Below, piece after piece: positions 557 through 21,636 of a DNA stretch of 24,012 bases (within the stretch, counting starts at the first letter, position 1; each line of letters opens with the position of its first letter). The notes under the pieces are model-generated. The model was not told where the DNA came from. It saw nothing but the letters and a program-made list of their open reading frames with translations, and made no database searches. Source of the stretch: a virus; IMG/VR virus record IMGVR_UViG_3300038451_000447, positions 1-24,012 of that record; one strand, written 5' to 3'. A program made the translations under genes and the position numbers.

Positions 557-674
557 GAATTACCGAGACGCATGCCCCCCTCTACGGGAACAAGCAATGG
601 CTCAGGACCAGAGATGGCCTGAGCCATTTCTGTTTCCAGTCCATCGCAATAGATTCCGTTCCAAGGAGGAAGTC
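557..674 (+). promoter_or_regulatory. Structured 5' leader RNA, copy 1
   Basis: First copy of a repeated leader. After GAGACGCATGCCC (from 565) comes a weak C-rich/G-rich hairpin: CCC 578-580 with GGG 586-588. The main hairpin has arms 596-606 and 618-628 (AATGGCTCAGG with CCTGAGCCATT, 11 pairs), a bulged A607, an inner CCA/TGG helix (608-610 with 615-617) and a GAGA tetraloop (611-614). The segment CCTC...GGAAC (579-591) can alternatively pair with GTTCC..GGAG (658-669) at the ribosome-binding site. It leads into AAGGAGGAAGTC and the ATG of basic peptide 1. It resembles no RNA family I can name. Confidence 0.8.
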
Positions 675-788
675 ATGGCAAAAACGAAGCGCGTTACCAA
701 GACCACGCTGGTGCAACTGAAAAAGATGACGCCGCGGGTGAACAAGCTCGGTAAGAGAGCTGCCAAGACGACTGCTGTCAAAGGCTAG
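675..788 (+). CDS. Very basic 37-residue peptide (basic peptide 1)
   Basis: The ATG at 675 sits seven bases after a strong AAGGAGG site and encodes 37 residues, 12 of them Lys or Arg, with no Asp or Glu. The N-terminus MAKTKRVTKTTLVQLKK aligns without gaps with the product of 5965-6069 (MAKRHRVSAMKTSHLKK), and both genes follow the same structured leader, so the two cassettes are paralogous. No family is recognised. The composition suggests binding to nucleic acid, for example DNA condensation or RNA binding; recognition of the GNRA hairpin in its own leader is a speculative option. The terminase starts 11 bases after the stop, so the two are probably cotranscribed. The conserved leader, the ribosome-binding site and the paralogue make it credible despite its size. 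Confidence 0.75.
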   Translation: MAKTKRVTKTTLVQLKKMTPRVNKLGKRAAKTTAVKG

Positions 789-799
789 CTCGGAGGGCG

Positions 800-2947
800 A
801 TGTACTCCGAAAAGATTATTCTCCGTAACTTGGATGAATTTGCCGCGCGTGAGGGGTGGATGCCTACTCCTCATACGCTTGATCAGGTTGATGAATTTAA
901 ACATTACATCGACTCTCTCGTAAAAATTGAAACAAACTCCCGCTCTTCCTATATCACGCTTGTTCGTGCGATCACTCAGAAACGACAAAAGGAAATCTGG
1001 CGCTGGATTGAGAATGAGCAAGCTCTTTGCGCTTTAAATAGCGACTATTTTGAAAGCCGCTATGGATTTGTGTGCAATGAAGGCGGTGAGATCTTCAAAT
1101 TCAGAAATCGCAAATCGCAGGAGATTTTCGATTCTGTGATTGCAGACTTTGACGAACGGCAAGTTGCTATTCGTTTGCTGATTTTGAAAGCGCGGCAGGT
1201 TGGCATCACCACAAAAACCGCTCTGAAATTCCTTCACAGAATGCTGTTTATTCCACACACGCAGGCCGTGATGGCTTCTGTGCAGGCAGATAAGTCTGAG
1301 TTGATCGGCCGCATTCTGGATATTGCCTACAATCGCTGCCCTTGGTGGCTGGTGCCACGGCGTTTGCCCAAGGGTGCCTTCGATAATGGATCGGTTCTTT
1401 CGATTCAATCGGGTATGCAGGCAACCGGCATCGCGCAAGGCTGGACGCCGACCTGCATTCATGTATCGGAACTTGCTGACATTCCGAAGCCCAAAAAAGT
1501 GATTGAAGAGGGACTGCTGCGTGCAACGCACAGCACGAAAAACCTCTTCATGGTGTTTGAAGGCACGGGTGGCGGCAATACCGGATGGTTGGCTGAAACA
1601 TGGCGTGCGGCCAAAGAAGACTTTCCGAAAGGGTTGCATGATCTTTGTCCGGTGTTCATTCCTTGGCCGATGGCAACGGATCTGTATCCGGAAAAGGATT
1701 GGATCAGTCAATTTCCGGTGCCAGAACGTTTTTATGAAAAGCGTCTTGAAGCGACACGGAAACATGTAGCTCGCGCAGAATTGTTTGTTCGCAATACGCC
1801 GTTTTTATCTCGCGTAGTTGGCACCAACTGGCGAATGCCGCTCGAACAGCAATGGTTTTGGCAGTTCAACTACGACAAATCCTGCAAGAACCATAGTCAA
1901 AAAATCTGGCTGGCACAGATGCCAGCGGATGATTTTGAAGCCTTGACGGGCTTGTATGACAGCGTGTTTGAACCTGATGTGATCCAGGAGATTGAAGATC
2001 ACATTTATGAAGTGCGCAGCGATTCTAAAGAAAGAAAAAAGCCGGTGCAGGCTTATGCGATTACGGGCGATTCCATCGATGAAGGTTTTGAACCCAATGA
2101 AACGATTGTCGATTATGACAAACCGCATATTCGCGTGAACTGGAAATCGGATAGAGGCCAATATTTTGACTGGATTCTGGTTCCGCTTTTGCCTGTAGAC
2201 GAAGACGTGGAATCTGAAACTTTTGATAAGTTGCTGGTTTATGAAGAACCAAAACAGGGTTACACGTATAGCTGCGGTATTGATACTGCGGATGGTTTGG
2301 GCAAAGAGGATGAAGACCGTACTTGCGTATCGATGACGCGCAATCGGTTTGGGGATGAATACGACTATCAAGTGGCCGAGCTGGTATCGAACCGCATCAA
2401 CTCTGCGCAAGTAGTGGGCTTTGCAGCTTGCATGGCCGCGTGGTATGGCCAGCATGCGCACGATGCGCGAGGCGTGAAATTTTGTGTGGAGCAGATTACG
2501 CGACCTGGCGATACATGCCAGCACCAGCTGAAGCTGATGGGCTTTCATTGGCATCACATTCCACGCCGCTACGACAGCAAAAAGATCAAGGATGAATCCG
2601 GGAAAAAGCAGGGATGGTACTCGAATGTGTGGAGCGTGCCGATTTTGATGACGCGTTTTACAGAAGCTGTGAATGGCGGCTGGTATCGACCGGCATCGAA
2701 GTGGCTGATTGAAGAACTGAAAACTTTGGAACGACATGAAGCGGCTGGCAAAAGCAAGATGACGCATCGCAGCGGTCAGCACGATGATCGCGTGCGAGCG
2801 GCGGCGCAATCCTTCTTTACCGCGCACGACTTTGACATTCTTGCTGAACGGTCACAAAAACGTTATGCATTGCCGCAAGAAAAGATGCCTCCGTTGAGCA
2901 AAGCAGTTTGCTCACTCAACATGGTTTCAGTAGGAGTATTCGATTGA
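800..2947 (+). CDS. Terminase large subunit (DNA-packaging ATPase/nuclease)
   Basis: At 715 residues this has the two-domain layout of a large terminase, the motor that drives phage DNA into the prohead and cuts concatemers. In the ATPase half, LKARQVGITTKT (about 129-140) is the variant Walker A, CIHVSELADI (219-228) supplies the Walker B acidic residues, and FEGTGGG (253-259) fits the coupling motif III. In the nuclease half, GIDTADG (493-499), VEQ (563-565) and QHDDRVRA (660-667) provide the acidic residues of an RNase H-like centre. The ATG at 800 has GGAGG at 792-796, an unusually short spacing. No small terminase gene is evident in the window; the basic peptide just upstream is far too small to be a normal one. 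The portal follows after one small gene, as expected for a packaging module. Confidence 0.95.
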   Translation: MYSEKIILRNLDEFAAREGWMPTPHTLDQVDEFKHYIDSLVKIETNSRSSYITLVRAITQKRQKEIWRWIENEQALCALNSDYFESRYGFVCNEGGEIFKFRNRKSQEIFDSVIADFDERQVAIRLLILKARQVGITTKTALKFLHRMLFIPHTQAVMASVQADKSELIGRILDIAYNRCPWWLVPRRLPKGAFDNGSVLSIQSGMQATGIAQGWTPTCIHVSELADIPKPKKVIEEGLLRATHSTKNLFMVFEGTGGGNTGWLAETWRAAKEDFPKGLHDLCPVFIPWPMATDLYPEKDWISQFPVPERFYEKRLEATRKHVARAELFVRNTPFLSRVVGTNWRMPLEQQWFWQFNYDKSCKNHSQKIWLAQMPADDFEALTGLYDSVFEPDVIQEIEDHIYEVRSDSKERKKPVQAYAITGDSIDEGFEPNETIVDYDKPHIRVNWKSDRGQYFDWILVPLLPVDEDVESETFDKLLVYEEPKQGYTYSCGIDTADGLGKEDEDRTCVSMTRNRFGDEYDYQVAELVSNRINSAQVVGFAACMAAWYGQHAHDARGVKFCVEQITRPGDTCQHQLKLMGFHWHHIPRRYDSKKIKDESGKKQGWYSNVWSVPILMTRFTEAVNGGWYRPASKWLIEELKTLERHEAAGKSKMTHRSGQHDDRVRAAAQSFFTAHDFDILAERSQKRYALPQEKMPPLSKAVCSLNMVSVGVFD

Positions 2948-3333
2948 ACGCGCAATTGAGTCGCAAAATTGTTTTTTGGCTGAATACCACGAATGGTCAG
3001 CTTGTGATGGGATTGCCTGAAGAATATCCGGCACCAACTTTCTACGAAAAGATTGTGTGCAATACCGCGCACGATGCCGAGCGGCTTTCACAACGCATGC
3101 GCGAACAGGAAGCCGAGCGCGAAGCGATGGAAGACGAAAATCGCGAATATATCGAAGCTGAATTAGTGCGCAACTTGCGTGGCCACATCCATGCGCAGAT
3201 TGCTAAAGCGCGTGACTGGAAGAATCGCGAGTTTTTGCAGCGCCATCTTGAACTTTATGATCAGCGGCAAGCTAAGTGGAAATGGAAGCGCGAAAGTTAT
3301 CTTCATGCGGAGGGCTATGAGCATGGACATTGA
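2944..3333 (+). CDS. Hypothetical protein overlapping the terminase stop
   Basis: The chosen start is TTG at 2944, which overlaps the terminase TGA (ATTGA) and has AGGAG at 2931-2935, eight bases upstream; this gives 129 residues. An ATG at 2908 is in frame but lies inside the terminase without a comparable site. The first 40 residues look like a small beta domain (KIVFWLNTTNGQLVMGLPEE). From about residue 45 the protein is highly charged and helical, rich in Glu, Arg, Gln and Lys (for example RMREQEAEREAMEDENREY), and likely a coiled coil. No known family is recognised. Translational coupling to the terminase and a position before the portal suggest a role in packaging or head assembly, but this is inferred from position only. 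Confidence 0.7.
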   Translation: MNAQLSRKIVFWLNTTNGQLVMGLPEEYPAPTFYEKIVCNTAHDAERLSQRMREQEAEREAMEDENREYIEAELVRNLRGHIHAQIAKARDWKNREFLQRHLELYDQRQAKWKWKRESYLHAEGYEHGH

Positions 3334-3487: not shown

Positions 3488-5560
3488 GTGGAACTGGAAA
3501 CTATTGCGTGGCAAGTACCGAAATTTGAAAGTACGCCGAGTGCACGAATCGGTTGGATTGAAGAGCAGATCGAGGAAGGAGAAGGCTTCCTTGAAGGGCA
3601 GTCTTGTTACAAAAATCTAGGCACAAATTTGCGTGTTTTTGATGCGATTTTCCGGGATAAATCGCGTTCGAATCTGGTTACCAACGAGCTGAAATACGAC
3701 ATCAGAAAATTCTGCGAAACGTTGGCGGAAGTGCGTGAAATTGCTGGTTTTGGATCGGATATTTCGGCTTATAAACAAATGGCGGAGATGCTGACGAAAG
3801 TATCAAAGGCCGTTTATCTGGAATCTGATTTTCCGTTCCAAATTTTAAAAGTTTTGCAGTATGCCGCAGTGATGGGCATTGGCTATTTATGGCCGAAAGT
3901 GCGCGCGGATGAATACGGCTATGGCGAACGCAAGATGGTGTTTGATGCGCTTGGACTTTTGGATGTAATTCCTGTGCAGATGCCAAGAAGCAACGATGTG
4001 CAGGATGCCTATGCCGTAACTGTATACGACTACATGCCGATTGCAGAAGCGCATGGGCGTTTTCCGCTTTTCCAGGGTCACTTGCAGACTGTGGGGCCGC
4101 GAAGTTATAAGACACGCGTGCAAGCCCGGCGTATGGATTATGCCGAGCGCTATCGCTATGGAGAAGAGGGAAGAAACTTCGGCAATCTCTATACGGAAAT
4201 CCGTTATACCTTTGTGCGCGATCTGCGCATCAATAATACGGGCTACGAATTGCCGATGGGCGATCCGAACACAAGCTGGTTTTATAAAGTGCCTACGGTT
4301 GGCCAAGATATCTTTGGCGGAATGCGCAATGGACTTCCGTATATGCGTCCGGCGACTGTGGAAGATTGCCGCGTGTATCCGAACTTGCGGCTCATTATTA
4401 CCTCAACAGGGTTGGATCGACCGATGTATGACGGGCCAACCTTTGATTGGGACGGAAAGATTCCGGTGATTCAGTACACCGTAGACGATTGGGCCTGGGA
4501 ACCGCTGGGACGGTCTTTGGTAGGTGATGTTTCTTCGATTGAAACTACAACGCGGAAGATTGAACGCAAGATTGATGACGTAATTACGATTACCTTGAAT
4601 CCGCCGATTGGCTATGACCACACAGCTACGGGTGGCGCAAAGATTGAGCATTTTGACATTTTTGAACAAGATGTTCGCTATGGTGTGGATGGAAAACCGA
4701 AAGACATTTTGCAATCGCTTTTGCCGGAAGGCGTAAACGTTCGATCAGAGCATTTTACGTTTTTGAAGTATTTGAAGGAAGCCAAACAGGCCCAGCTTGG
4801 ACTGACAGACCTTGGCAATTTGCAAAACGTGAAGATGAATATTGCCAATGATACAGCGGACAAGATGCTGGAATCGATTGGTCCGATTGCGAAGGGAATT
4901 GCCGCCCGCATTGAAAAAGCGAACAAGGCAGTTGGATACCGGATGAAGTTTCTGATTCTGCAATGGTTCAATGTGAAACGAATCATGGAGTATGTAGGAC
5001 CAGATAACATTGCGCGTGAAGTTTTTGACTACAATCCGGACGATTTGGTGCCGAGCCATATGCCGGATGAAATGGTGGGTGGTAATTTTCCGTCGGGTCC
5101 GTCTCGCTATGATCAATTAACCCGTGCACGGTGGTTTGCGAAGCAAATTCGACTTACTTCAGTGCCAAGCACATTGCTGAAGGTGACACAGATGCAGCGT
5201 CAATTAATGATGTTGCAGTTGAAGCGTGGGGGAGCGCCGATTTCCTGGTGCACCGTAATGAAAAATCTGGATATTCCAAATTACGGCGAAATTGCAGGAA
5301 ATACGGAACACGAGAAATGGTTTAACGAAGAGTTGGAAACGCAGAAATTGAAGATTCTGGCTGCAGCCGCAGCGCAACAGTTGATGCAGCAACTGGGATT
5401 GCAACCACCAGGAGGCGAAGGCGGTGGAGGCGGTGGTAAAGGAAAAGGCGGCGGAAAAGGTGGTGGCGGCGGACGGCCATCTTCAGGAGCAAAAGCGCCA
5501 CGCATTAAACAAAAAGGCGCACAAGGTGGAGAACCGCGGACCGTGGTAACAGAATCGTAG
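3488..5560 (+). CDS. Portal protein (head-tail connector)
   Basis: The 690-residue protein sits two genes after the terminase, where a portal is expected, and its length fits P22-like podovirus portals. The portal forms the dodecameric DNA gateway in the head and docks the terminase. The central segment PVIQYTVDDWAWEPLGRS followed by a helix rich in charged residues (VGDVSSIETTTRKIERKID) and LNPPIGYD is characteristic of portal proteins. The C-terminus has Ala/Gln-rich helices (AAAAAQQLMQQLG) and then a low-complexity Gly/Lys tail from about residue 640 to 665, presumably disordered. The GTG start has only a poor ribosome-binding site (ATAGG) and follows a 154-base gap; a 4-codon ATG AAA AAG AAA TAG frame ends 7 bases before it. 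An in-frame start further downstream cannot be excluded. Confidence 0.85.
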   Translation: MELETIAWQVPKFESTPSARIGWIEEQIEEGEGFLEGQSCYKNLGTNLRVFDAIFRDKSRSNLVTNELKYDIRKFCETLAEVREIAGFGSDISAYKQMAEMLTKVSKAVYLESDFPFQILKVLQYAAVMGIGYLWPKVRADEYGYGERKMVFDALGLLDVIPVQMPRSNDVQDAYAVTVYDYMPIAEAHGRFPLFQGHLQTVGPRSYKTRVQARRMDYAERYRYGEEGRNFGNLYTEIRYTFVRDLRINNTGYELPMGDPNTSWFYKVPTVGQDIFGGMRNGLPYMRPATVEDCRVYPNLRLIITSTGLDRPMYDGPTFDWDGKIPVIQYTVDDWAWEPLGRSLVGDVSSIETTTRKIERKIDDVITITLNPPIGYDHTATGGAKIEHFDIFEQDVRYGVDGKPKDILQSLLPEGVNVRSEHFTFLKYLKEAKQAQLGLTDLGNLQNVKMNIANDTADKMLESIGPIAKGIAARIEKANKAVGYRMKFLILQWFNVKRIMEYVGPDNIAREVFDYNPDDLVPSHMPDEMVGGNFPSGPSRYDQLTRARWFAKQIRLTSVPSTLLKVTQMQRQLMMLQLKRGGAPISWCTVMKNLDIPNYGEIAGNTEHEKWFNEELETQKLKILAAAAAQQLMQQLGLQPPGGEGGGGGGKGKGGGKGGGGGRPSSGAKAPRIKQKGAQGGEPRTVVTES

Positions 5561-5816: not shown

Positions 5817-5825
5817 AAATAACTC

Positions 5826-5854
5826 TTGACTCGAAAAAAGATTCGGCCTATAGC
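5826..5854 (+). promoter_or_regulatory. Sigma70-like promoter for leader 2
   Basis: TTGACT (5826-5831), a 17-base spacer, then TATAGC (5849-5854). The predicted start is near 5861. The distance from the -10 to the GCATGCCC box (5875) is within one base of that at leaders 1 and 4. It lies immediately after the stop of the preceding gene. Confidence 0.62.
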
Positions 5855-5860
5855 TCTAAA

Positions 5861-5964
5861 AGAATCACTGAGCGGCATGCCCCCCCTCCTTGGGGAATCA
5901 GCAATGGCTCAAGACCAGAAATGGCTCTTGAGCCATTTCTATTTCAATCCCAAGGAGAAACGTC
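5861..5964 (+). promoter_or_regulatory. Structured 5' leader RNA, copy 2
   Basis: ACTGAGCGGCATGCCC precedes a C-rich/G-rich hairpin (CCCC, loop TCCTT, GGGG to 5895). The main hairpin pairs 5903-5914 with 5926-5937 (AATGGCTCAAGA with TCTTGAGCCATT, 12 perfect pairs), then CCA 5915-5917 with TGG 5922-5924, a GAAA tetraloop (5918-5921) and a bulged C5925. CTCCTTGGG (5886-5894) is the exact reverse complement of CCCAAGGAG (5949-5957), which contains the ribosome-binding site of the next gene. The first hairpin and this long-range helix cannot form together, so the leader could switch. Confidence 0.85.
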
Positions 5965-6069
5965 ATGGCAAAGCGTCATCGTGTTAGCGCAATGAAGACC
6001 AGCCACCTGAAGAAGGGTCGCAAGGGACATCGCAAGGCCCGCAGCAAGAAGAGCAGCATCAAGGCGTAG
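5965..6069 (+). CDS. Very basic 34-residue peptide (basic peptide 2)
   Basis: The ATG at 5965 follows CCAAGGAGAAACGTC, the same GTCATGGCAAA start context as basic peptide 1. It encodes 34 residues with 14 Lys/Arg and three His, and no acidic residue. The first 17 residues align without gaps with basic peptide 1 (MAK..RV........LKK pattern), and the tail (GRKGHRKARSKKSSIK) is protamine-like. No family is recognised. Likely roles are binding DNA or RNA. Because its synthesis is governed by a leader shared with other genes, autoregulation or a regulon-wide RNA-binding role is an attractive but untested idea. A perfect 15-bp hairpin follows seven bases after the stop. Confidence 0.72.
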   Translation: MAKRHRVSAMKTSHLKKGRKGHRKARSKKSSIKA

Positions 6070-7486: not shown

Positions 7487-7578
7487 TCGAGACGCATGCC
7501 CCCCTCTTGGGAATCAGCAATGGCTCAAGACCAGAAATGGCTTGAGCCATTTCTATTTCAATCCCAAGAAGGTGACAA
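7487..7578 (+). promoter_or_regulatory. Structured 5' leader RNA, copy 3 (capsid gene)
   Basis: TCGAGACGCATGCCC, then a CCC-TCTT-GGG hairpin. The main hairpin pairs 7519-7529 with 7541-7551 (AATGGCTCAAG with CTTGAGCCATT), with bulged A7530, CCA/TGG (7531-7533 with 7538-7540) and a GAAA loop (7534-7537). TCTTGGGA (7505-7512) is exactly complementary to TCCCAAGA (7562-7569), just before the AAGGTG ribosome-binding site, mirroring copy 2 with different bases. No convincing promoter lies at the usual distance, so this copy may act inside a longer transcript. Confidence 0.82.
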
Positions 7579-8811
7579 GTGCCAACCGATCCGCTCTATA
7601 ACGAAATCGACGCGTCGAACTTGGAAAGTGTCCGGAAGAACGTCGTGTTTAACAATCTTTTTGTTGACACGCCCTTCCAGGCAAAGCTCCGCAGGGCCGG
7701 TGTATGGGATGAATTCCTTGGTGGCGCAGGCATGATGGAAGGCATCCTTTACGGACGCACGCAGGGAGCCGCGGTGAATCCCGGCCAGACTGTCACCGTG
7801 ACCCGTCAGCAGATTAACACCGGCATCAAGTTCCTGCCGAAGGCGTATGCCACTTGGTATCCGCTGGATGACTGGGAGATGGATGACGGTTCCGGCACCG
7901 GTGGTGTGATCAACTCCGGTCCGTCGAAGATTGTGGACGAGTACCAGCTCTACATGGAATGCATGGTGATGACCATGAACACCATGCAGGAGATGGATTC
8001 ATTCCGTCATGGACAGCCCTCGTCAAGCACGGTGACCGATAACCGCATCAAGGCGATCAATGGCCTGGATGAGGCGCTGAACAACGGTATTGATCCGTCC
8101 GTCTACGGCAATATCTACACCAACTATGGTGGACAGGCCCGCAATGGCAACATTGGCACGGCGCTGAATACTACACCGCTTTATCTGGGCACGCCTGCGG
8201 GCGGTACTGGCCAGATTGATTTTGCCTCTTTGATGCAGCTTTGGTCGCAGTGCAAAGTAGCCGGTGGCAATCCGACACTGGGCATTACCAATGTGTTCGG
8301 CTTCAAGGCCGTGGCGGTGGCTCTGGATGCGCAGCGCCGCGATATTTCAAACACGAAGCATGACATCAAATGGGATGGCCTGAACTTTAACGGTGTGGAT
8401 ATTTACGCCGATCCTCTGGCGCCTTCTGCCCAGGCACAGAACTACATTGAACTGGCACCGGCCAACGGCGCTGCGGGTAATACGAACTTGGCGGACGGCG
8501 TAGGTTCGAGCACTGCAACCATCTCGTTTACAACTCCGCAGTTCTACAAGAACGGTGTGGCAGTAAGTACGTCGCCGACTGGCTCTGGATTGCCTTCGAC
8601 CACAACGATTCAGCCATCGGAAGTTCTGTACTTCCTGGAGCCGGAGAGCTTTAAGATCCGACCGACCAACAAGAAGGGTTGGAACTTTGGTCTGCGCCGT
8701 GCGCCGATGCCGAACAACGTATCGATCGATGCGCTGTTCATGCGGTTGGGAACCAACCTTTACAACGTGCAGCCGCGCCATAACGATTACGCATTTGGAT
8801 TCTCGGCATAA
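7579..8811 (+). CDS. Major capsid protein
   Basis: The 410-residue protein starts at GTG 7579, five bases after AAGGTG; no other start fits the leader. Its place right after the scaffold, its size and its abundance of Gly, Asn, Thr and Ala fit an HK97-fold major capsid protein. The N-terminal arm is polar and helical (residues 1-45). TVTVTRQQINTGIKFLPKAY (about 72-91) and the C-terminal GTNLYNVQPRHNDYAFGF look like the long beta elements of the fold. An insertion rich in Ala, Ser and Thr (about 285-345) could be a surface loop domain. It does not carry an obvious N-terminal cleavage segment. The family label is by context and general resemblance rather than a diagnostic motif. Confidence 0.8.
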   Translation: MPTDPLYNEIDASNLESVRKNVVFNNLFVDTPFQAKLRRAGVWDEFLGGAGMMEGILYGRTQGAAVNPGQTVTVTRQQINTGIKFLPKAYATWYPLDDWEMDDGSGTGGVINSGPSKIVDEYQLYMECMVMTMNTMQEMDSFRHGQPSSSTVTDNRIKAINGLDEALNNGIDPSVYGNIYTNYGGQARNGNIGTALNTTPLYLGTPAGGTGQIDFASLMQLWSQCKVAGGNPTLGITNVFGFKAVAVALDAQRRDISNTKHDIKWDGLNFNGVDIYADPLAPSAQAQNYIELAPANGAAGNTNLADGVGSSTATISFTTPQFYKNGVAVSTSPTGSGLPSTTTIQPSEVLYFLEPESFKIRPTNKKGWNFGLRRAPMPNNVSIDALFMRLGTNLYNVQPRHNDYAFGFSA

Positions 8812-11359: not shown

Positions 11360-12594
11360 AAAAAATGTTTTTTTTACTTTTTCTTCTTGTTACCGGGCGA
11401 GAAATCTTGTTCGGGCAACCAAGTAATACAATACCCGCTGGTGCGTATTGCTTGAATGCTACCGCCGGATGGATACCGGTTGCAAGCGCTGCAGGAATGG
11501 TAAGTCCAACCAACCCTCCGGGTATGGCACTCTATGGATTTAATAACAATCAATGGTATGCCTTGGCATGTGATGCTAATGGCAATCTAGCTGTAACGGC
11601 TTCAGGAGGAACGATTGCGGCGGGAACTGCAGGACAAATTGCAGCCTATTCCGGAAGTACAGCGATCAGCGCGATCAGTGAAGTTCCGATTGCCAATTTG
11701 ACAACGAATCCAAGCACTGTTTTTTTTGTTAACTCAAACAGTTCCTATTCAGGTACGCCAGACGGATCGCCAGATAAACCCTATACCAGTTTTTCGCAAG
11801 CCTATGCAGCAATGACCCAAGCAAAACCCTATGTAATGATTATTGCGCCATGGACTACGTATGCGGATTTAAATCCCACGTTGCCATCTAACATTACGGG
11901 ATTGAAAATTTATGGCAATCAAGCTACGTACACAATTGTTTCTGGGACGCTGGCAATATCTTGTCCAACAGTTGTTTTTTATTTGTTTACATCAGGGGCG
12001 ATTACCAGTTCATCAACATGGTCGAGATATGGAGGATCACTTAACGGGAATTTGACAATAACAGGTACCGGAGAATTTAGAGACACTACTTTTACAGGAG
12101 CGGTAGTTATCGATGTTGGAAGTAGCGCCACAGTCTCATTCAACGGTGTGACTTTGGCTGGAACAATTACCTCGCAAGGAAGTGGATCAACAGTAATCAT
12201 CAAAAATCATAGTACTCTTACAAATTCTTTGTCCTCGCCTAACATTAACATGAGCGCAGGCGGAAAATTATCTATAGAAGAAACTAATTTAACCAATGGA
12301 GGAAGTGGTTCCAACATTAATTGCGCTGATGGAGCAACGAGTTCCACTGCAAATTTTATTGGTGATGGAACGATTATGAACAACGGAATTTCATGCGGTA
12401 CAGCTTATACGTATCTATCTCCAGGCGCAATCGTACCGTCAGTAAGCGGATCAGCGATCTATCCGACGACGCAATCTATTTTTGGCCCGGCGACGGCTCC
12501 TAGCGGCAGTTGTTCGCCGAGTGGAGTATGGGTTTTTAGCCAAGATGGACATGCTACGACTTGCATCAGTGGAACTTGGACAACCAAAATCTAG
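11356..12594 (+). CDS. Beta-helix fibre/adhesin-like protein with signal peptide
   Basis: The start ATG at 11356 overlaps the previous TGA and gives 412 residues. Residues 1-20 are a Sec-type signal: MKK, then FFLLFLLV, ending near LFGQ. The body holds a DGSPDKPYTSFSQA segment (about 135-148), typical before right-handed beta-helix domains, followed by strand repeats (NLTITGTGEFRDTTFTGAV, SATVSFNGVTLAGTI). The C-terminus has SPSGVWVFSQDGHATTCISG, a motif shared by many tail-fibre tips. It probably binds a surface polysaccharide. An export signal on a phage fibre is unexpected, because virion proteins normally assemble in the cytoplasm. No catalytic residues can be assigned. Confidence 0.65.
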   Translation: MKKMFFLLFLLVTGREILFGQPSNTIPAGAYCLNATAGWIPVASAAGMVSPTNPPGMALYGFNNNQWYALACDANGNLAVTASGGTIAAGTAGQIAAYSGSTAISAISEVPIANLTTNPSTVFFVNSNSSYSGTPDGSPDKPYTSFSQAYAAMTQAKPYVMIIAPWTTYADLNPTLPSNITGLKIYGNQATYTIVSGTLAISCPTVVFYLFTSGAITSSSTWSRYGGSLNGNLTITGTGEFRDTTFTGAVVIDVGSSATVSFNGVTLAGTITSQGSGSTVIIKNHSTLTNSLSSPNINMSAGGKLSIEETNLTNGGSGSNINCADGATSSTANFIGDGTIMNNGISCGTAYTYLSPGAIVPSVSGSAIYPTTQSIFGPATAPSGSCSPSGVWVFSQDGHATTCISGTWTTKI

Positions 12595-12604
12595 GGGCAT
12601 TGCG

Positions 12605-14074
12605 ATGAAGAAATTATTACTGATTTTGCTGATTCTATTTTCTGGCTCGGCCTTTGCGCAGGTTGGCGCAATTACGAATTATTGCGTTCTTGGTGCTACA
12701 CAAGCATCTGTTTCAGGTTTGAAATCTTCAAATGATTTGCAGGGAATTGTTCCGCAATGCACGGTCACGGTCTATTTGGATGGTTATTACGCCGTCAAAA
12801 GCGCGACGTACACAAGTGGCGGAACGGTTACAGGGACGAGTGGTAAAACTTGCGTTGCGACATTTGTTGGAGGAACCACGGATGGAACCGCAACGATTAC
12901 ATTGACAGGAACTAACACGATTGCCGCTAACACTGCGTTTGTCATTACGGCTGGTGGCATCTATGCGACGACCCCAACGACGGCGACTTTGAGTAATGGT
13001 ACGGCGACATGCTCCGGCACAGCGACAGTTTCTGCGGTGATGACACCTGCGCTGGCGACGATTTATTCAGACAAGAGCAGTACGGCATTGACGAATCCAT
13101 TTACGGCCAATAGTGATGGTTCCTGGCTATTTTATGCAGCAACCAGTAAAGGATATGACGTTAAACTCAGTGGGGGTGTAAGCCCGAATATTTATCTTGT
13201 TCCTGTGACATTAACTGGATTGTTTCCGGGGGCAAGTTATTCTTCAGGATGCGGTTCCACTACAGGAATTGTGTGCGATACGGCATATGGAGGCACGGGC
13301 ATCAACTCCAGTGCAAGCACGGGAGTAGCACAAGTTGATGCTGGCGTGTGGAGCATTAGCACAGCCTTGGCTGATGGCACTACCGCAACAACACAAACTA
13401 CGGGTGATACTTCTACGGATGTGGCCACGGATGCTTTTGTGGGGGCTACAGTGGGAAATTATCTGCCGCTGTCTGGTGGCACGCTGACTGGAGATTTAAT
13501 TTTGCCAGGTATGACCCTCACAAGTTTGACAGGTTATCTTTATGCGAATGGCAGTAGCGCAGTAACGGCGAGTACAACCATTCCCATTGCCGCACTTTCC
13601 TACGATTCAACGACGGTGAATGGGCAGACTTGCACACTAGGTGGAAGCTGCACGGTAACGGCGGCCGCAACGGGAATCTCTGTAGGCACAACCACAGTAT
13701 CAAATGGCACAACAGGCTACATTCTGTATGACAATGCTGGCATTTTGGGGAATTTGGCAACGACGGGGAGTGGAAGTGTGGTGCTGGCAACATCACCCTC
13801 AATCTCCGGATTAATGGTAACTTCGTCCTTTACAGCGACCGGTCTGGTAACAAATTCTGATCTTACCAATGCTTCGACAACGGTGAATGGACAGACTTGT
13901 ACTTTGGGCGGAAGCTGCACGGTAACAGCAACAGGAATAACTGTTGGCACAACCACAGTATCGAGTGGCACGAGTGGGTATATCTTATACGATAACAGCG
14001 GTACGCTTGGCAATCTAGGCACAACTGGATCAGGAAATGTTGTGCTGAGACATCCCCCTCAGTCTCCGGATTAA
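12605..14074 (+). CDS. Repeat-rich fibre protein 1, truncated by frameshift
   Basis: The ATG at 12605 gives a textbook signal peptide (MKKLLLILLILFSGSAFA, then QVGA). The mature N-terminus (ITNYCVLGATQ) and the collar segment (ALTNPFTA..DGSW, SGGVSPNIY) are shared with fibre 2 at 15045. Compared with fibre 2 it has an extra stretch of about 80 residues, roughly residues 60-140, between YLDG and ATIYSD. From about residue 290 it enters the repeat modules. After VVL (near 14047) the expected ATSPSVSGL becomes RHPPQSPD and a stop, because one base is missing relative to the other repeat copies. The rest of the protein continues in another frame to 15015. The gene is either disrupted, phase-variable, or a sequencing error. 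Confidence 0.7.
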   Translation: MKKLLLILLILFSGSAFAQVGAITNYCVLGATQASVSGLKSSNDLQGIVPQCTVTVYLDGYYAVKSATYTSGGTVTGTSGKTCVATFVGGTTDGTATITLTGTNTIAANTAFVITAGGIYATTPTTATLSNGTATCSGTATVSAVMTPALATIYSDKSSTALTNPFTANSDGSWLFYAATSKGYDVKLSGGVSPNIYLVPVTLTGLFPGASYSSGCGSTTGIVCDTAYGGTGINSSASTGVAQVDAGVWSISTALADGTTATTQTTGDTSTDVATDAFVGATVGNYLPLSGGTLTGDLILPGMTLTSLTGYLYANGSSAVTASTTIPIAALSYDSTTVNGQTCTLGGSCTVTAAATGISVGTTTVSNGTTGYILYDNAGILGNLATTGSGSVVLATSPSISGLMVTSSFTATGLVTNSDLTNASTTVNGQTCTLGGSCTVTATGITVGTTTVSSGTSGYILYDNSGTLGNLGTTGSGNVVLRHPPQSPD

Positions 14075-14397
14075 CGGTAACTTCGTCTTTTACGGCGATT
14101 GGCCTTGTAACAAATACCGATCTTGCCAATGCTTCTACGACGGTAAATGGGCAGACCTGCACACTAGGTGGAAGCTGCACGGTGACGGCGGCAGCAACAG
14201 GAATCACGGTAGGTACAACGACAGTATCGAGTGGCACGACAGGCTATATTTTGTATGACAACGGTGGCACGCTTGGAGATCTAGCGACGACGGGGAGTGG
14301 CAGTGTGGTGCTGGCAACATCCCCCTCAGTCTCCGGATTAACGGTAACTTCGTCTTTTACGGCGACCGGACTCGTGACAAATACTGATCTTGCCAAT
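13604..14397 (+). repeat. Three tandem copies of a 267-bp coding repeat
   Basis: Copies start at 13604, 13871 and 14131. Each encodes about 89 residues: TTVNGQTCTLGGSCTVTA, then GYILYDNGGTLG, then SPSVSGLTVTSSFTATGLV. The middle copy is 260 bases: it lacks two codons and one further base, and the last loss causes the frameshift. The DNA similarity is high, implying recent duplication or gene conversion. Confidence 0.9.
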
Positions 14398-15015
14398 GCT
14401 TCTACGACGGTGAATGGATCAACCTGTACTTTGGGATCGAGCTGCACGGTGACGGCGGCTGCGGGAACTCTGACGGGTACGACGCTGAACTCTACGGTGG
14501 TTAGTTCGAGCTTGACTTCTGTGGGGACGATTACATCTGGTGTATGGAACGGTACGCTAATTGGCGCAGCATATGGCGGCACGGGCATCGACTCCAGTGC
14601 AAGCACGGGAGTGGCACAAGTTAGTGCGGGCGTCTGGAGTATCAGCACAGTAGTTTCGGCCACACATTTAGTTGGTATATCATCCACACCTACAATAACT
14701 GTTGGTACGGGAGCGGGAACGGGCGGGACTGCAACCTGCGCAGGTTTTCACTGTTCGGACATGAACGGAGTTGTGAATGTCACAGTGGGGACTTCTCCTT
14801 CAGCAAATGCCACCGTTTTTACAGTTACGTTTGCTTCGCCTTATGGGAATATCGTAAATTGTGTGTATAACGTAACTAACGAAACTCTTGCTACTGGAGT
14901 GTATGTTCCAGCATATCTGACCGAGGCTGCTGCCTATATAGCCATAGTTGCACCAACAGGCAACGCGTGGACAGCAGGTAGTGAATATTCCGTTAACTAT
15001 TTTTGCGGTCAGTAA
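14182..15015 (+). pseudogene. Out-of-frame C-terminal part of fibre 1
   Basis: This frame continues fibre 1 after the indel: coding similarity to the other repeats resumes by about 14050, and the GTG at 14182 is merely the first start-like codon, inside a repeat and without a ribosome-binding site. It carries the rest of the repeat, a LTGTTLNSTVVSSSLTSVG module, a YGGTG motif, and a unique tip of about 100 residues (from about 14690; CAGFHCSDMNG, VNVTVGTSPSANATVFTVTF, ending YSVNYFCGQ). The tip is probably the receptor-binding end. Joining the two frames by a one-base correction would give a protein of about 800 residues, similar in size to fibre 2 (892). Confidence 0.72.
14461..14586 (+). 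repeat. YGGTG-type coding repeat, copy 1
   Basis: Encodes AGTLTGTTLNSTVVSSSLTS followed by VGTI..GVWNGT..GA.YGGTG. Related copies lie at 16164-16289 and 16785-16910. The YGGTG module is common in fibre shafts of many phages and in endosialidase-type fibres. Confidence 0.8.
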
Positions 15016-15044
15016 ATGTTGGAGAGACTTAAGCAAGGTGTGAA

Positions 15045-17723
15045 ATGAAAAAAATTATATGTTTTTTGTTTGTACTTGCGGTGTTGATGATGTTTCCCAT
15101 TACGGCTTCCGCACAGGTTGCCGCAATCACAAATTATTGTGTTCTAGGCGCGACTCAAGCAGTGACTTCAGGATTGCAGTCGAGTAATTATCAGCAAGAA
15201 CTTATTCCAGATTGCACAGTAACAGTTTATTTGACCGGGACAACAACTTTGGCAACAATCTATGCAGATGCCTTGGAAACGTCTTTGACGAATCCATTTA
15301 CGGCTACAGCCAATGGCCAATGGATTTTTTTTGCGGCAATTAATCTGGGTTATGACATTGTATTGAGTGGAGGTATTTCTCCCAACATTTATCCTACTTC
15401 TGTCACTCTGACGGGATTGTATCCTTCTTCGCAACTTTCAAGTACAGTGTGGGGAGGAATTACCGGAACTCTTAGTAATCAGACAGATTTGCAAACTGCT
15501 CTCAATGCCAAGTTGAATTTGTCTGGTGGCACGCTAACCGGAGATTTAGTCTTACCGGGTATGACCATCACAAGTTTGACAGGTTATCTTTATGCGAATG
15601 GCAGCAGTGCTGTGACGGCGAGTACAACCATTCCCATTGCTGCACTTTCCTACGATTCTACCGCAGTGAATAGCCAGACTTGTACTTTGGGATCGAGCTG
15701 CACAGTAACGGCGGAAACGCCAAATTCCTTGACCTTCAACAGTGGCGGTTCAGGTGGGGCATCAGGATCGACATTCAATGGAGCATCCGCATTAACTGTG
15801 AGTTACAACACTGTGGGCGCAGCAGCTTCGAATGCTTCTACAACGGTAAATGGGCAGACTTGTACGCTTGGATCGAGCTGCACGGTGACGGCGGCAGCAA
15901 CAGGAATCACGGTAGGCACAACGACAGTATCGAGTGGCACAACGGGTTATATTTTGTATGACAACGGCGGCACACTGGGAAATTTGGCGACGACGGGGAG
16001 TGGAAGTGTGGTGCTGGCAACATCTCCTTCAGTCTCCGGATTAACGGTAACTTCGTCTTTTACGGCGACCGGACTCGTGACAAATACTGATCTTGCCAAT
16101 GCTTCTACGACGGTGAATGGGCAGACCTGTACACTCGGTGGAAGCTGTACCGCAACGGCGGCTGCAGGGACGCTGACGGGGACAACGCTTAATTCGACCG
16201 TGGTCAGTTCTAGTCTTACGTCGGTAGGGACCATTGGTACGGGTGTATGGCAAGGAACCATCATTGGTGCTGGTTACGGCGGAACGGGGACTTCTACCCT
16301 CACAGGTATTCGATACGCAAATGATGGATCGGCAGATACTGCATCCACAAGTTCTCAAATACTAACGGCAATTGGATCGGGAAACATTACCAATACTTAT
16401 TTGGCAAATGCTTCAACGACGGTAAATGGGCAGACTTGCACACTGGGGTCGAGCTGCACGGTGACGGCAACAGCAGCGGGAATTACAGTAGGCACAACGA
16501 CGGTGACCAGTGGCACGAGTGGGTATATTTTATACGACAACAGCGGCACACTTGGTGATCTAGCGACGACCGGGAGTGGGAATGTGGTGCTGGCAACATC
16601 CCCTTCAGTTTCTGGTTTGACGGTTACATCTTCTTTTACCGCAACTGGTTTAGTAACTAGCACTGACTTGGCTAGCACGGCAGTAACAGCAGGAAGTTAT
16701 GGATCGTCAACTGCGATTCCATCCTTTACCGTTAACGCAGAAGGACAACTTACAGCAGCGAGCACCAACGTTGTGATTGCCCCAGCAGGAACGTTGAGCG
16801 GAACAACATTGAATTCTACCGTAGTTAGTTCCAGCCTTACATCTGTAGGAACCATCGGAACAGGAGTGTGGAATGGAACGGCAATCGGTGCTGGTTACGG
16901 CGGAACGGGAACCACTACGCTTACAGGAATCCGATACGCAAATGGTGGCTCGGCGGACACTGCATCCACCAGCGCCCAAGTTCTTACAGCTATTGGGTCA
17001 GGGAATATCACCAACACTTATCTTACCAATGCTTCGACAACGGTAAATGGGCAGACCTGCACGCTTGGATCGAGTTGCACGGTAACGGCGGCAGCAACGG
17101 GAATCACAGTAGGCACAACTACAGTATCAAGCGGTACAACAGGCTATATTTTGTATGACAACGGTGGCACGCTTGGAGATCTAGCGACGACGGGGAGTGG
17201 GGATGTGGTGCTGGCAACATCTCCTTCAGTCTCCGGATTAACGGTGACTTCGTCTTTTACGGCAACGGGCCTTGTGACAAATACTGATCTGGCTTATGAC
17301 TCTATCACAGTGAGTGGAGTTACATGCACTCTGGGATCAAGCTGCTCAGTAAGCGTTATGAACCATCCCTTCTGGTTTGATGATGAGTCGAATACTGCAT
17401 ACACTGCGTCCCAAGCAGTGGTGTATATCACCAGTACCCTGGCCCAAACGATTCCTTCGGGTGGATCATCCACACAATTGGGGATTACTTGCACATCGAA
17501 GTTTACCCTTAAAACTGCTGCTACGGCATCGACGACGTTCAACATCAATGACAACGGGACGAGTTTTGGAACGATTGTATTTGCGGCGTCTGGAACCAGC
17601 GGAACGATCACCATTTCATCCGCTAAATCTATCGCATCTGGTGGGATTATCACTATCACTGCACCTTCAACTGCGGATAGTACGGCGGCTGGCTTGTACG
17701 GCGGACTGTGCAGTTATTACTAG
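15045..17723 (+). CDS. Repeat-rich fibre protein 2 with signal peptide
   Basis: The intact 892-residue paralogue of fibre 1. The signal peptide is MKKIICFLFVLAVLMMFPITASA before QVAA. Residues about 25-130 form the shared collar domain (ITNYCVLGATQ, LTNPFTATANGQW). LSGGTLTGDLVLPGM (about 160) opens the shaft. Three full 267-bp modules, two YGGTG modules and two GIRYAN.GSADTAS segments alternate through to about residue 750. The tip (from about 765, NHPFWFDDESNTAYT) differs from fibre 1 and has Thr/Ser/Gly-rich beta strands ending GGLCSYY. The architecture is of a trimeric adhesive shaft with a swappable tip. AAGGTG precedes the ATG. Export rather than virion assembly is suggested by the signal peptide but unproven. 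Confidence 0.75.
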   Translation: MKKIICFLFVLAVLMMFPITASAQVAAITNYCVLGATQAVTSGLQSSNYQQELIPDCTVTVYLTGTTTLATIYADALETSLTNPFTATANGQWIFFAAINLGYDIVLSGGISPNIYPTSVTLTGLYPSSQLSSTVWGGITGTLSNQTDLQTALNAKLNLSGGTLTGDLVLPGMTITSLTGYLYANGSSAVTASTTIPIAALSYDSTAVNSQTCTLGSSCTVTAETPNSLTFNSGGSGGASGSTFNGASALTVSYNTVGAAASNASTTVNGQTCTLGSSCTVTAAATGITVGTTTVSSGTTGYILYDNGGTLGNLATTGSGSVVLATSPSVSGLTVTSSFTATGLVTNTDLANASTTVNGQTCTLGGSCTATAAAGTLTGTTLNSTVVSSSLTSVGTIGTGVWQGTIIGAGYGGTGTSTLTGIRYANDGSADTASTSSQILTAIGSGNITNTYLANASTTVNGQTCTLGSSCTVTATAAGITVGTTTVTSGTSGYILYDNSGTLGDLATTGSGNVVLATSPSVSGLTVTSSFTATGLVTSTDLASTAVTAGSYGSSTAIPSFTVNAEGQLTAASTNVVIAPAGTLSGTTLNSTVVSSSLTSVGTIGTGVWNGTAIGAGYGGTGTTTLTGIRYANGGSADTASTSAQVLTAIGSGNITNTYLTNASTTVNGQTCTLGSSCTVTAAATGITVGTTTVSSGTTGYILYDNGGTLGDLATTGSGDVVLATSPSVSGLTVTSSFTATGLVTNTDLAYDSITVSGVTCTLGSSCSVSVMNHPFWFDDESNTAYTASQAVVYITSTLAQTIPSGGSSTQLGITCTSKFTLKTAATASTTFNINDNGTSFGTIVFAASGTSGTITISSAKSIASGGIITITAPSTADSTAAGLYGGLCSYY
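15834..16100 (+). repeat. 267-bp coding repeat, fibre 2 copy 1
   Basis: Same module as at 13604-14397, in frame and full length, with near-identical DNA including the segment from TCCGGATTAACGGTAACTTC onward. It is followed at 16101 by the start of another copy that changes after about 55 bases into the YGGTG module. Confidence 0.9.
16164..16289 (+). repeat. YGGTG-type coding repeat, copy 2
   Basis: Encodes AGTLTGTTLNSTVVSSSLTS followed by VGTIGTGVWQGTIIGAGYGG. It is followed by the GIRYANDGSADTAS segment (about 16290-16409), which recurs after copy 3. Confidence 0.8.
16410..16676 (+). repeat. 267-bp coding repeat, fibre 2 copy 2
   Basis: Full-length, in-frame copy with more synonymous differences than the others toward its 3' end, so it is probably an older or less converted copy. 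Confidence 0.85.
16785..16910 (+). repeat. YGGTG-type coding repeat, copy 3
   Basis: Encodes AGTLSGTTLNSTVVSSSLTS and then VGTIGTGVWNGTAIGAGYGG, followed by GIRYANGGSADTAS (about 16911-17030). Confidence 0.8.
17031..17297 (+). repeat. 267-bp coding repeat, fibre 2 copy 3
   Basis: Full-length, in-frame copy. Its DNA is closer to the copies at 14131 and 15834 than to the adjacent copy at 16410, which suggests exchange between the two fibre genes. Confidence 0.88.
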
Positions 17724-19258: not shown

Positions 19259-19269
19259 AAAGGGAAGCG

Positions 19270-19661: not shown

Positions 19662-19692
19662 CAAACGAACCGGTCTAAAAAAGGGAGAACCA

Positions 19693-20232: not shown

Positions 20233-20239
20233 TTCAGCT

Positions 20240-20287: not shown

Positions 20288-20304
20288 CACAAAAGGGGAA
20301 AACC

Positions 20305-20490
20305 ATGAGTTTCTTTGGAAAGATTGGACACGCGATTGTGGATATTGCGGAGAATATAATCCTCGATCCACCGGCGCCACCTGATCCGAATCCCTTGCCA
20401 GGGCCTGAACCTCCGCCTGCGCAACCTTCACAACCTCCGCAACCGGACTTTCCTCCTTCACCCGACTTTGGCAAAATGCCTCGACCATAA
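20305..20490 (+). CDS. Proline-rich small protein
   Basis: The 61-residue protein starts at ATG 20305 after GGGGAAAACC. The first 20 residues are an amphipathic helix (SFFGKIGHAIVDIAENIIL). The rest is a Pro-rich, probably extended tail (PPAPPDPNPLPGPEPPPAQP). Such a helix-plus-Pro tail could span the periplasm or cap another protein. No family is recognised. It shares a transcript with the next two genes, and its hairpin leader is the strong stem-loop at 20240. Confidence 0.6.
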   Translation: MSFFGKIGHAIVDIAENIILDPPAPPDPNPLPGPEPPPAQPSQPPQPDFPPSPDFGKMPRP

Positions 20491-20509
20491 CGAGTTCATT
20501 GGAGGAATC

Positions 20510-20833
20510 ATGCCTGGTCCGATTACTCCCATCAATGTGAATCAGGAACAACGAGACTTCCATGATGTTGAGCGGGAACATTACTTACGGCGTTGTCTGA
20601 TCGCATTCGATATTTTCTGCAATGTGGTGTTCTTTTTTGGAGACGAGGATGAGACGATCAGCAGTCACTCTGCCCGCGCCGCCACGCAGGGGAAACGGTG
20701 GGGGATTGTGCTGAGCTGGTTCCTCGACCTTTTCCAGCGTGACCACGGGGCTCACGCCGTTGCAGGGGACGAGGAACGCGCCCTGAACATCGAGCAGGTA
20801 GAAGAAACCAGCGGAGTCCTTCCGAAGAAGTGA
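20510..20833 (+). CDS. DETISS-motif phage protein of the lysis region
   Basis: The ATG at 20510 has GGAGGAATC upstream and gives 107 residues. A hydrophobic amphipathic stretch (IAFDIFCNVVFFFG, 31-44) leads into DEDETISSHSARAATQGKRW (45-64) and LSWFLDLFQRDHGAHAV. To my recollection this DETxSSxxxRxxxxGKRWG pattern marks a family of small conserved phage proteins often found near lysis genes, without a settled function. The His-containing end might bind metal. It could assist lysis or regulate it. It lies 19 bases after the Pro-rich gene and 23 bases before the endolysin ATG. Confidence 0.62.
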   Translation: MPGPITPINVNQEQRDFHDVEREHYLRRCLIAFDIFCNVVFFFGDEDETISSHSARAATQGKRWGIVLSWFLDLFQRDHGAHAVAGDEERALNIEQVEETSGVLPKK

Positions 20834-20856
20834 TTCTTGGCAGAAGAGGCAGCATC

Positions 20857-21300
20857 ATGCGGGTTCAAGATCAAGTGTTTCTTGCAGTGGCAATGTGGAA
20901 AGAGAATCGTGAAGCTGGCGTGCGTGGAATGCAGAGCGTAGGGAACGTGCTGATGAATCGTGCGGCAAAACGTAAAACCAATGAATACACGGAATGCACG
21001 CGCCCATTGCAGATTTCGAGTCTGACGGCCAAAGGCGATCCAGAATTGACTCTATGGCCACAGGATAGCGATCCGACTTGGCAAACTGCACTTGATCTTG
21101 CCGCTCATGCTGCGGCCGGTATTCTTGTGGACATTACGAACGGCGCCACGCTTTATTACGCACCGGAAGGGCAATCATGGAAGCAGCGTTTTACCCTTCC
21201 AAATGGAAGTGTGATTGCTTTTCCGGATGATTGGAATAAAGAGGCTGTTGCCTATACCGCAGAGATTGGTAGTCAGTATTTTTTTAAAGAAGTGAATTAA
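20857..21300 (+). CDS. Endolysin, SleB-type cell-wall hydrolase
   Basis: The 147-residue protein begins at ATG 20857 with AGAGG upstream; GTG 20830 in the same frame overlaps the previous stop but lacks a site. LAVAMWKENREAGVRGMQSV (residues 9-28) matches the family start, where the Glu at 16 would be the catalytic acid, followed by VLMNRA (31-36), QISS (52-55) and DITNGATLYYAP (92-103). Members cleave the peptidoglycan glycan strand, as lytic transglycosylases or N-acetylglucosaminidase-like enzymes. No signal peptide or anchor is present, so release through the upstream holin is expected. The length is within the range of single-domain phage lysins. Confidence 0.8.
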   Translation: MRVQDQVFLAVAMWKENREAGVRGMQSVGNVLMNRAAKRKTNEYTECTRPLQISSLTAKGDPELTLWPQDSDPTWQTALDLAAHAAAGILVDITNGATLYYAPEGQSWKQRFTLPNGSVIAFPDDWNKEAVAYTAEIGSQYFFKEVN

Positions 21301-21313
21301 ATGGGAGGCACAA

Positions 21314-21520
21314 ATGCCGGCACGTGAGATCATGAAGAAATTCCGCCAGCATACGCTTCACTCCGGCCGGAGCGGCAAGATTGTGCGTAACAAGAAACAA
21401 GCGAAGGCGATCTTGTTGAGTTACTTGCGGAAAGAGGGAAGAATCGGCCCGCGCAAGGGGAAAAAAACAAAGAGATTGGCACATAAAAGAGTTGTCAGCA
21501 AGCAAAGATCGCGAAGATAA
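21314..21520 (+). CDS. DUF6496-like small basic protein
   Basis: This 68-residue protein has a strong GGGAGG site six bases from ATG 21314. The N-terminal MPAREIMKKFRQHTLHSGR, then GKIVRNKKQAKAILLSYLRK, matches DUF6496 (MPAREIMHK..LHSG...KSRKQAIAI), a small basic family common in phages and soil bacteria. The C-terminus is nearly all Lys/Arg (PRKGKKTKRLAHKR). Nucleic-acid binding is plausible; function is unknown. Its 3' end overlaps the promoter hexamers of leader 4, so the next unit is transcribed from within this gene. The family assignment comes from remembered pattern rather than a search. Confidence 0.7.
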   Translation: MPAREIMKKFRQHTLHSGRSGKIVRNKKQAKAILLSYLRKEGRIGPRKGKKTKRLAHKRVVSKQRSRR

Positions 21521-21521
21521 T
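21492..21521 (+). promoter_or_regulatory. Sigma70-like promoter for leader 4
   Basis: TTGTCA (21492-21497), an 18-base spacer and GATAAT (21516-21521), each one mismatch from consensus. The distance to the ACATGCCC box (21541) equals that at leaders 1 and 2. The hexamers lie inside the end of the preceding gene. Confidence 0.62.
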
Positions 21522-21527
21522 AATGCA

Positions 21528-21636
21528 GTACAACTGAGCGACATGCCCTCTCCCCTTTGCGGGGAGAACAAGCAATGGCTCAAGACCGGCAACGGCTCTT
21601 GGGCCATTGCTGTTTTTGTTGCAGGGAGGATAGGTC
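21528..21636 (+). promoter_or_regulatory. Structured 5' leader RNA, copy 4
   Basis: ACTGAGCGACATGCCC, then the strongest first hairpin: TCTCCCC (21549-21555) with GGGGAGA (21561-21567), loop TTTGC. The main hairpin pairs 21574-21585 with 21597-21608 (one G-T), then CCG 21586-21588 with CGG 21593-21595 around GCAA (21589-21592), with bulged C21596. The inner pair A-T of the other copies is G-C here, a compensatory change, and the loop is still GNRA. A T-rich stretch (GCTGTTTTTG) follows. It ends in GGGAGGATAGGTC before the ATG. Confidence 0.83.

Follow-up and report, generated by a model that had tools for sequence, protein, structure and literature searches.

The IMG/VR virus record IMGVR_UViG_3300038451_000447 (24,012 bases; hereafter the window) carries several copies of one 5′ leader RNA ahead of late-gene blocks, and this leader is probably a bistable element that works as an ON-switch. 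Comparison of the copies reveals covariation in two hairpins (hairpin 1 and hairpin 2) and in a competing helix, P1, that shares bases with hairpin 2; besides, there are promoter-like sites, a U-rich tail and, at two gene sites, complementarity to the Shine-Dalgarno (SD) sequence. An ON-switch is the most economical reading of these features, and from them we infer termination, switching, the ON/OFF polarity and a trigger.

In the nascent leader, the 5′ box would pair with the strand after hairpin 1 and thereby form P1. Together with hairpin 1, P1 would constitute the permissive fold, in which transcription and, in some copies, also translation is allowed. Should P1 yield, the shared strand (GCAAUGGCUC) would pair downstream, giving rise to the long hairpin 2 with its U-rich tail, which resembles an intrinsic terminator and would block expression. 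At the small-basic-protein and capsid sites, hairpin 1 would then be free to pair with the SD sequence as an added translational lock. P1 might be held by a phage late protein. The bulges and the joint that follows hairpin 1, rich in purines (GGGAAYAA in the main family), would be candidate contact points for whatever holds P1.

Covariation and competing folds of the leader

The first-pass annotation of the window had placed four leader sites at 557-674, 5861-5964, 7487-7578 and 21528-21636. All four are present there, each with a GCATGCCC box (ACATGCCC in copy 4), a C/G hairpin (hairpin 1) and a AATGGCTCA hairpin (hairpin 2), and the loops of the latter had been read correctly as GAGA, GAAA, GAAA and GCAA in copies 1-4. 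Without mismatch, the box GAGNNNCATGCC occurs in the window only at 565, 5870, 7489 and 21536. When one mismatch is allowed, there are 16 matches, compared with 6.2 ± 2.5 in 100 shuffles (none of which reached 16), and one of the 16, at 23567, is a degenerate fifth copy. This copy, P1, the SD pairing, the promoters and the copies lacking hairpin 2 all go beyond that annotation.

Relatives bearing the leader are phages from soil and peat metagenomes. Their loci were collected from IMG/VR via the capsid protein (43 loci; 72 with an alignment of relatives; the best 80 of 119 with a more diverged alignment, the lists overlapping) and via a DNA-pattern search (at least 117 stretches, chance matches included). 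Among 74 distinct copies collected, 70 make up the alignment A1; of the four omitted, two lack hairpin 2 and two contain long inserts. On A1, hairpins 1 and 2 are paired in 91.8% of cells and 11 of their 23 pairs show two-sided changes, compared with 5.7 in shuffles; none of 500 column shuffles reached any of five covariation measures, yet such shuffles preserve column composition and not relatedness, and the copies are related by descent. Covariation, whose absence from an enlarged alignment had been named as grounds for dropping the element, is thus present relative to column shuffles, relatedness uncorrected.

In line with the earlier statement that the first hairpin keeps pairing despite change, all five pairs of hairpin 1 show two-sided changes. 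In hairpin 2 they affect 6 of 18 pairs. The compensatory exchange of AGG/CCT and AAG/CTT reported for this stem is real, but it lies in the upper part, whereas the lower 5′ arm (columns 40-49) is identical in 69 or 70 of the 70 rows, which we attribute to its being shared with P1. Within the main family, hairpin 2 keeps its 5′ arm unchanged and lets the 3′ arm drift via G-U pairs, a pattern to be expected of a 5′ arm with two partners. The GNRA loop is common in this family, but it is not kept in the diverged family, several copies of which have other loops.

P1 pairs the 5′ box (GAG-RR-CAU-GC, also GAG-(A/C)RR-CAU-GC) with GC-A-AUG-G-CUC, that is, with the 5′ arm of hairpin 2 and the bases just before it. 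It encloses hairpin 1 and excludes hairpin 2, about ten bases being common to P1 and hairpin 2. Covariation of P1 is thin in the main family because both strands are nearly invariant there; in diverged phages, box and partner strand change together. Tested in register across 20 sequence types, 172 of 200 P1 cells are paired, compared with 149.7 (sd 3.4) when strands are swapped (0 of 100,000). In the underlying table, from which L201 was omitted and for which bulge lengths were parsed by hand, column 1 is G-C in 16 types and U-A in three, column 9 is A-U in 11, G-C in eight and U-A in one, column 10 is U-A in five, U-G in five, G-C in four, C-G in two and unpaired in four, column 11 is G-C in ten, G-U in six and A-U in four, and column 12 is C-G in 19 and G-C in one. 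The exchange of CAU/AUG for UAU/AUA, as in copy 5, occurs at one gene site in three contigs, two of the five matches being chance loci. On the alignment A4 (25 rows), inner P1 is paired in 96.8% of cells, with two-sided change in four of five pairs; for P1 and hairpin 1 jointly, the paired share was reached by 0 of 500 shuffles and the number of pairs with two-sided change by 1 of 500. A looser test, in which swapped strands are scored by duplex energy, agrees, with 1,875 of 200,000 swaps for 14 types, and the held-out copies L400 and L387 each ranked their own partner first.

We therefore favour P1 and hairpin 2 as mutually exclusive helices that share one strand. Minimum-energy folding of the growing transcript just past the shared strand gives at least eight P1 pairs for 68 of 84 copies, compared with 80 of 840 box-shuffled ones. 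In 81 of 84 copies, hairpin 2 then replaces P1 after a further 26 nt (median), as a prediction of folding and not of kinetics. Two exclusive, strand-sharing helices, as in an attenuator, are thus found, and P1 and hairpin 2 both covary; a plain conserved hairpin pair was dropped on the covariation of P1. As to the earlier proposal of a phage regulon built on one RNA structure, the repeated, covarying leader stands, but the data favour two exclusive folds and downstream parts that differ among copies (hairpin 2 alone, hairpin 2 with SD pairing, or SD pairing alone).

Hairpin 2 has the look of a terminator, yet it would be one of the two arms of a switch. After removal of nine chance loci (L165-L169, L172, L177, L179 and L181), which reduced 96 copies to 87, the corrected count is 83 of 87 copies with hairpin 2, with median values of 16 pairs and -22.6 kcal/mol under a permissive fold rule. 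Its tail is U-rich, with 75% U at the second base past the stem compared with 18% in the background, and the 10 nt after the arm hold a mean of 5.3 U compared with 2.4 in the window (49 of 70 main copies, arm anchored).

A covariance model of hairpins 1 and 2 that contains no P1 pairs (R1) found copies in 10 of 10 related records (39-134 kb, chosen from loci already known to hold copies), so that the search of other phages suggested by the first-pass annotation came out in favour of the element. At 50 bits or more, R1 detects 56 copies, 3-7 per record and on a single strand within each of the 10 records; the weaker matches on the other strand (up to 46 bits) stem from hairpin 2, which is nearly palindromic and is there read in reverse. 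R1 also detects elements in phages whose capsid protein is ~65-87% identical to that of the window, and others from the more diverged query. A second model, R2, comprises P1 and hairpin 1 and was built on A4, a MAFFT alignment. With E up to 1 it matches 26 of 28 diverged loci, and with E up to 0.1 it matches 22 of 26, fifteen of the diverged loci having supplied R2 itself and some being near duplicates; its misses are L193, L414 (detected by R1), L199, L392, L393 and L394.

In agreement with the earlier remark that no named RNA family has this form, neither the window nor six diverged loci gave an Rfam 15 match at the gathering threshold, and a lax Rfam search of the window returned only whalefall-1 (E 2.2) inside copy 2 and mir-132 elsewhere, at chance level. 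Among the open-licence PMC papers listed by literature searches, none describes this element in its title or abstract opening. In bacterial genomes, the capsid query found no relative, and a loose DNA pattern matched at least 120 stretches, mostly as chance, by which absence from bacteria is not established. On 80 loci among the bacterial pattern matches listed, R1 gave one partial match (E 0.24), and on two acidobacterial genomes nothing at E 0.01.

Gene sites, promoters and Shine-Dalgarno pairing

Leader copies precede six recurrent gene sites, encoding a basic protein of 36-42 amino acids (aa) with LGKR before terL (site a), a 33-40-aa basic protein (site b), the capsid protein (site c), a ~85-aa protein with KGRRYPI (site d), a tail-region protein (site e) and a protein with SLFGG (site f). 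The remaining copies are unclassed, and 10 of 120 copies have no detected gene start. Site b looks the most widespread, since in the diverged loci listed the copy mostly precedes a short basic protein. Homing-endonuclease-like frames (WAAGIYEGEGS, HNH-like; recognized by eye) lie directly behind leaders in L015 (from ~9367), L049, L062 and L180, and in some phages they sit between leader and capsid gene.

Many copies follow a promoter-like site of the sigma70 type. TTGAC lies at most 80 nt upstream of 47 of 96 copies, compared with 6.5% of shuffles, and 42 of the 47 sit 39-48 nt before the box, the nine chance loci being included in the 96 and one of them (L169) in the 42. From this spacing, transcription would start ~6-9 nt before the box. 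Consensus promoter and terminator scans of the window gave no excess over shuffles. The promoter of copy 4 is among their matches; that of copy 2, a weaker sigma70-like match, was missed by the consensus scan.

In the copies at site b, a CUCCUUGG-like sequence within hairpin 1 is complementary to the SD of the gene (CCAAGGAG). Own hairpin 1/SD pairs there reach -16.5 kcal/mol compared with -14.0 kcal/mol in within-site swaps (0 of 20,000; n=33), an excess that is in part a block effect between main and diverged phages. Similarly, own pairs at site c of the main family reach -13.1 compared with -11.0 kcal/mol (0 of 20,000; n=13), and site d gave p=0.008 by energy and 0.25 by longest match (n=9). 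Among the copies without hairpin 2, the first 46 nt of L191 and L062 form P1 and hairpin 1, and in the full fold the 5′ strand of hairpin 1 is paired to their SD; in copy 5 of the window, the first 46 nt again form P1 and hairpin 1, and the SD lies inside a local hairpin. A constant core thus appears to drive different outputs.

Counter-evidence, rival readings and known systems

Besides the shared descent of the copies, several observations weigh against the ON-switch. At a threshold of five or more P1 pairs, the contrast in the growing transcript is weak (84 of 84 copies compared with 506 of 840 box-shuffled ones). Outer P1 is only 78.4% paired on A4, in part because MAFFT shifts shorter boxes by one; its pairs fail in L217, its fourth pair is missing in 30 of 70 main copies, and L201, L412 and L404 fit P1 poorly. 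Duplex-energy swaps are weaker than the in-register test, at 252 of 100,000 for 21 types, 1,123 of 100,000 for a reduced set of 17, and 8,537 of 200,000 for nine held-out types (representing 13 listed copies, near duplicates omitted). The U tract behind hairpin 2 is interrupted, with at least 6 U in 10 nt for 24 of 49 anchored copies, and the consensus terminator scan of the window called no hairpin 2. Finally, within-site swaps gave no SD pairing signal at sites a (p=0.22) and f (p=0.71), so that SD pairing as a feature of all sites is not supported.

The rival that survives best, though we consider it unlikely, is a processive antiterminator of the put or nut type. The leader, as P1 with hairpin 1 or as hairpins 1 and 2, would then bind polymerase, either alone (as HK022 put) or with a phage protein (as lambda nut/N), later terminators would be ignored, and the competition with hairpin 2 would be secondary. 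Like the leader, lambda nut is a phage leader with a small hairpin, often GNRA-like. The consensus of its boxA is YGCTCTTTA, to which the window has 14 one-mismatch matches compared with 9.7 expected, but none inside copies 1-5. A short structured leader right after promoter-like sites fits such an antiterminator, as do the copies without hairpin 2 that retain P1 and hairpin 1, and put itself, according to PMC9378689, is a short structured phage leader near a promoter (~70 nt, two stem-loops, downstream of an early promoter). However, put stands before early genes and acts on polymerase with both stems together, whereas our leader stands before late genes and, although its hairpins 1 and 2 can coexist, P1 and hairpin 2 exclude each other. 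P1 covaries with the strand that also builds hairpin 2, for which put has no need; the SD pairing at sites b and c suggests local control; most capsid-site copies are listed without a TTGAC promoter-like site; and 10 of 10 related records lack a protein of the lambda Q-type family Antiterm (PF03589; control matched in E. coli, other Q families not searched).

It is still less probable that there is no switch, hairpin 2 being a plain insulating terminator or an RNA-stabilising or processing hairpin of each late block, with box and hairpin 1 in a separate role. Hairpin 2, at the median energy given above, is indeed far more stable than P1 and dominates full-length folds, but P1 covaries in register and the box is retained where hairpin 2 is lost. 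A DNA-level element, with box and partner as an operator or inverted repeat near the transcription start, is very improbable, for although short inverted repeats keep a nearly constant distance to promoter-like sites, P1 often contains G-U pairs (column 10 in 5 of 20 types, column 11 in 6 of 20), the covariation of hairpins 1 and 2 likewise includes such pairs, and many copies have no promoter-like site.

As an ON-switch, the leader would work like terminator/antiterminator attenuators and RAT-type antiterminators. In the latter (BglG/SacY/LicT), the 3′ strand of an upstream helix is the 5′ strand of the terminator, and stabilising that helix permits read-through; likewise, the 3′ strand of P1 is the 5′ strand of the terminator-like hairpin 2. 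According to the opening of the abstract of PMC3369936, antiterminator and terminator stem-loops are mutually exclusive. On the other hand, our leader has another sequence and a larger core, stands before virion genes and in some copies seems translational only, and CAT_RBD proteins were found in 0 of 10 related records (control matched in four genomes), a host protein still being possible. We assign it to neither RAT nor put, because the protein of RAT was not found and the polymerase contact of put lies beyond sequence data. With riboswitches and ribosomal-protein-type attenuators it shares a constant core on a varied platform (terminator, terminator with SD pairing, SD pairing only), and it differs from them in having no Rfam match or known ligand and in occurring in several copies per phage genome, before virion genes.

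As regards the trigger, ANTAR proteins were found in 0 of 10 related records, but the control matched nowhere either, and the 17 distinct proteins scanned in a 60-kb relative, out of 83 frames, included no known antiterminator. A metabolite signal was rejected, as the GGDEF enzyme of this relative is present in only 1 of 10 related records. The phage contig of the relative (G001) carries this GGDEF (diguanylate cyclase) gene at 17640-18344 of L224 and, at ~5695-6160 of L222, a CRISPR-like array of seven ~36-nt repeats spaced 70-73 nt. A bolder version of the ON-switch, which we put forward with considerable doubt, would be a modular switch family forming the whole late regulon, with one sensor core (P1 and hairpin 1) to which any of three outputs (a terminator, an SD lock or both) could be attached, and one late signal that throws all copies together. 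The small basic protein behind the most widely kept copy could then possibly be this signal, an antiterminator that binds RNA and does for late genes what N does in lambda.

The window, its host and wider meaning

PHROG matches identify terL (800-2947), portal (3488-5560) and major capsid protein (7579-8811) genes in the window. The leaders had been said to precede several late genes, and the downstream genes of all four could be identified, virion genes among them: a 37-aa basic protein and then terL behind copy 1, a 34-aa basic protein behind copy 2, the major capsid protein behind copy 3 and, behind copy 4, an 85-aa protein (PHROG 16160, function not assigned). The two tiny Lys/Arg-rich proteins (675-788 and 5965-6069), both of which follow a leader and recur in diverged phages, have no PHROG match. 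A leader peptide (ATG in the box, ATG in hairpin 2) was dropped, since frames and stops differ among the window copies by eye. Elsewhere in the window, ~13600-17350 encodes long, signal-peptide-like proteins in which a TVNGQTCTLGGSCTVTA unit is repeated and which may be tail-fibre-like. Where the 60-kb relative has a single frame of 844 aa, the window has two at 12482-15015 (530 and 277 aa), owing to a frameshift or a sequencing error.

Table 1. Leader copies in the window and their parts
Feature	Position	Strand	Remark
Copy 1, P1 5′ strand (box GAGACGCATGC)	565..575	+	
Copy 1, shared strand GCAATGGCTC	594..603	+	partner: box (P1) or 3′ arm of hairpin 2
Copy 1, hairpin 2 (GAGA loop) and U-rich tail	592..635	+	
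Copy 2, sigma70-like promoter (TTGACT, 17 nt, TATAGC)	5822..5856	+	read from the sequence; same promoter and spacing in relatives
Copy 2, P1 5′ strand (GAGCGGCATGC)	5870..5880	+	
Copy 2, hairpin 1 (CCCC/GGGG)	5883..5895	+	
Copy 2, shared strand GCAATGGCTC	5901..5910	+	
Copy 2, hairpin 2 (GAAA loop) and U-rich tail	5903..5945	+	
Copy 2, SD segment TCCCAAGGAG	5948..5957	+	complementary to hairpin 1
Copy 3, P1 5′ strand	7489..7499	+	upstream of major capsid protein
Copy 3, shared strand GCAATGGCTC	7517..7526	+	
Copy 3, hairpin 2 and U-rich tail	7519..7559	+	
Copy 3, segment TCCCAAGAAG ahead of GTG start	7562..7571	+	complementary to hairpin 1
Copy 4, sigma70-like promoter (TTGTCA, 18 nt, GATAAT)	21492..21521	+	consensus scan
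Copy 4, P1 5′ strand (GAGCGACATGC)	21536..21546	+	
Copy 4, shared strand GCAATGGCTC	21572..21581	+	
Copy 4, hairpin 2 (GCAA loop) and U-rich tail	21571..21620	+	
Copy 5, degenerate: box GAGCAGTATGC, hairpin 1, strand GCCATAGCTC	23567..23604	+	without hairpin 2; P1 UAU/AUA for CAU/AUG

An acidobacterial host is plausible for the window phage, since its only isolated relatives found in the phage collection, the Tunturiibacter phages Tunturi_1 and Tunturi_2 (capsid 31% identity over 70%, terminase 28% over 96%), infect an acidobacterium. The words promoter and terminator do not occur in the available portion of the paper on these phages (PMC11924767). Tunturi_1 yielded no credible leader, the best R1 match having E 0.43 and R2 giving nothing at E 0.1.

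The best-studied phages time their late genes through promoters, sigma factors or Q-type proteins. The covariation reported here indicates that a phage lineage has placed copies of one bistable RNA before several late blocks. If true, this would add an RNA layer to phage late control and a new Rfam family, and it would provide a naturally matched set of transcriptional and translational forms of a single switch as well as an entry into gene control of uncultivated soil phages.

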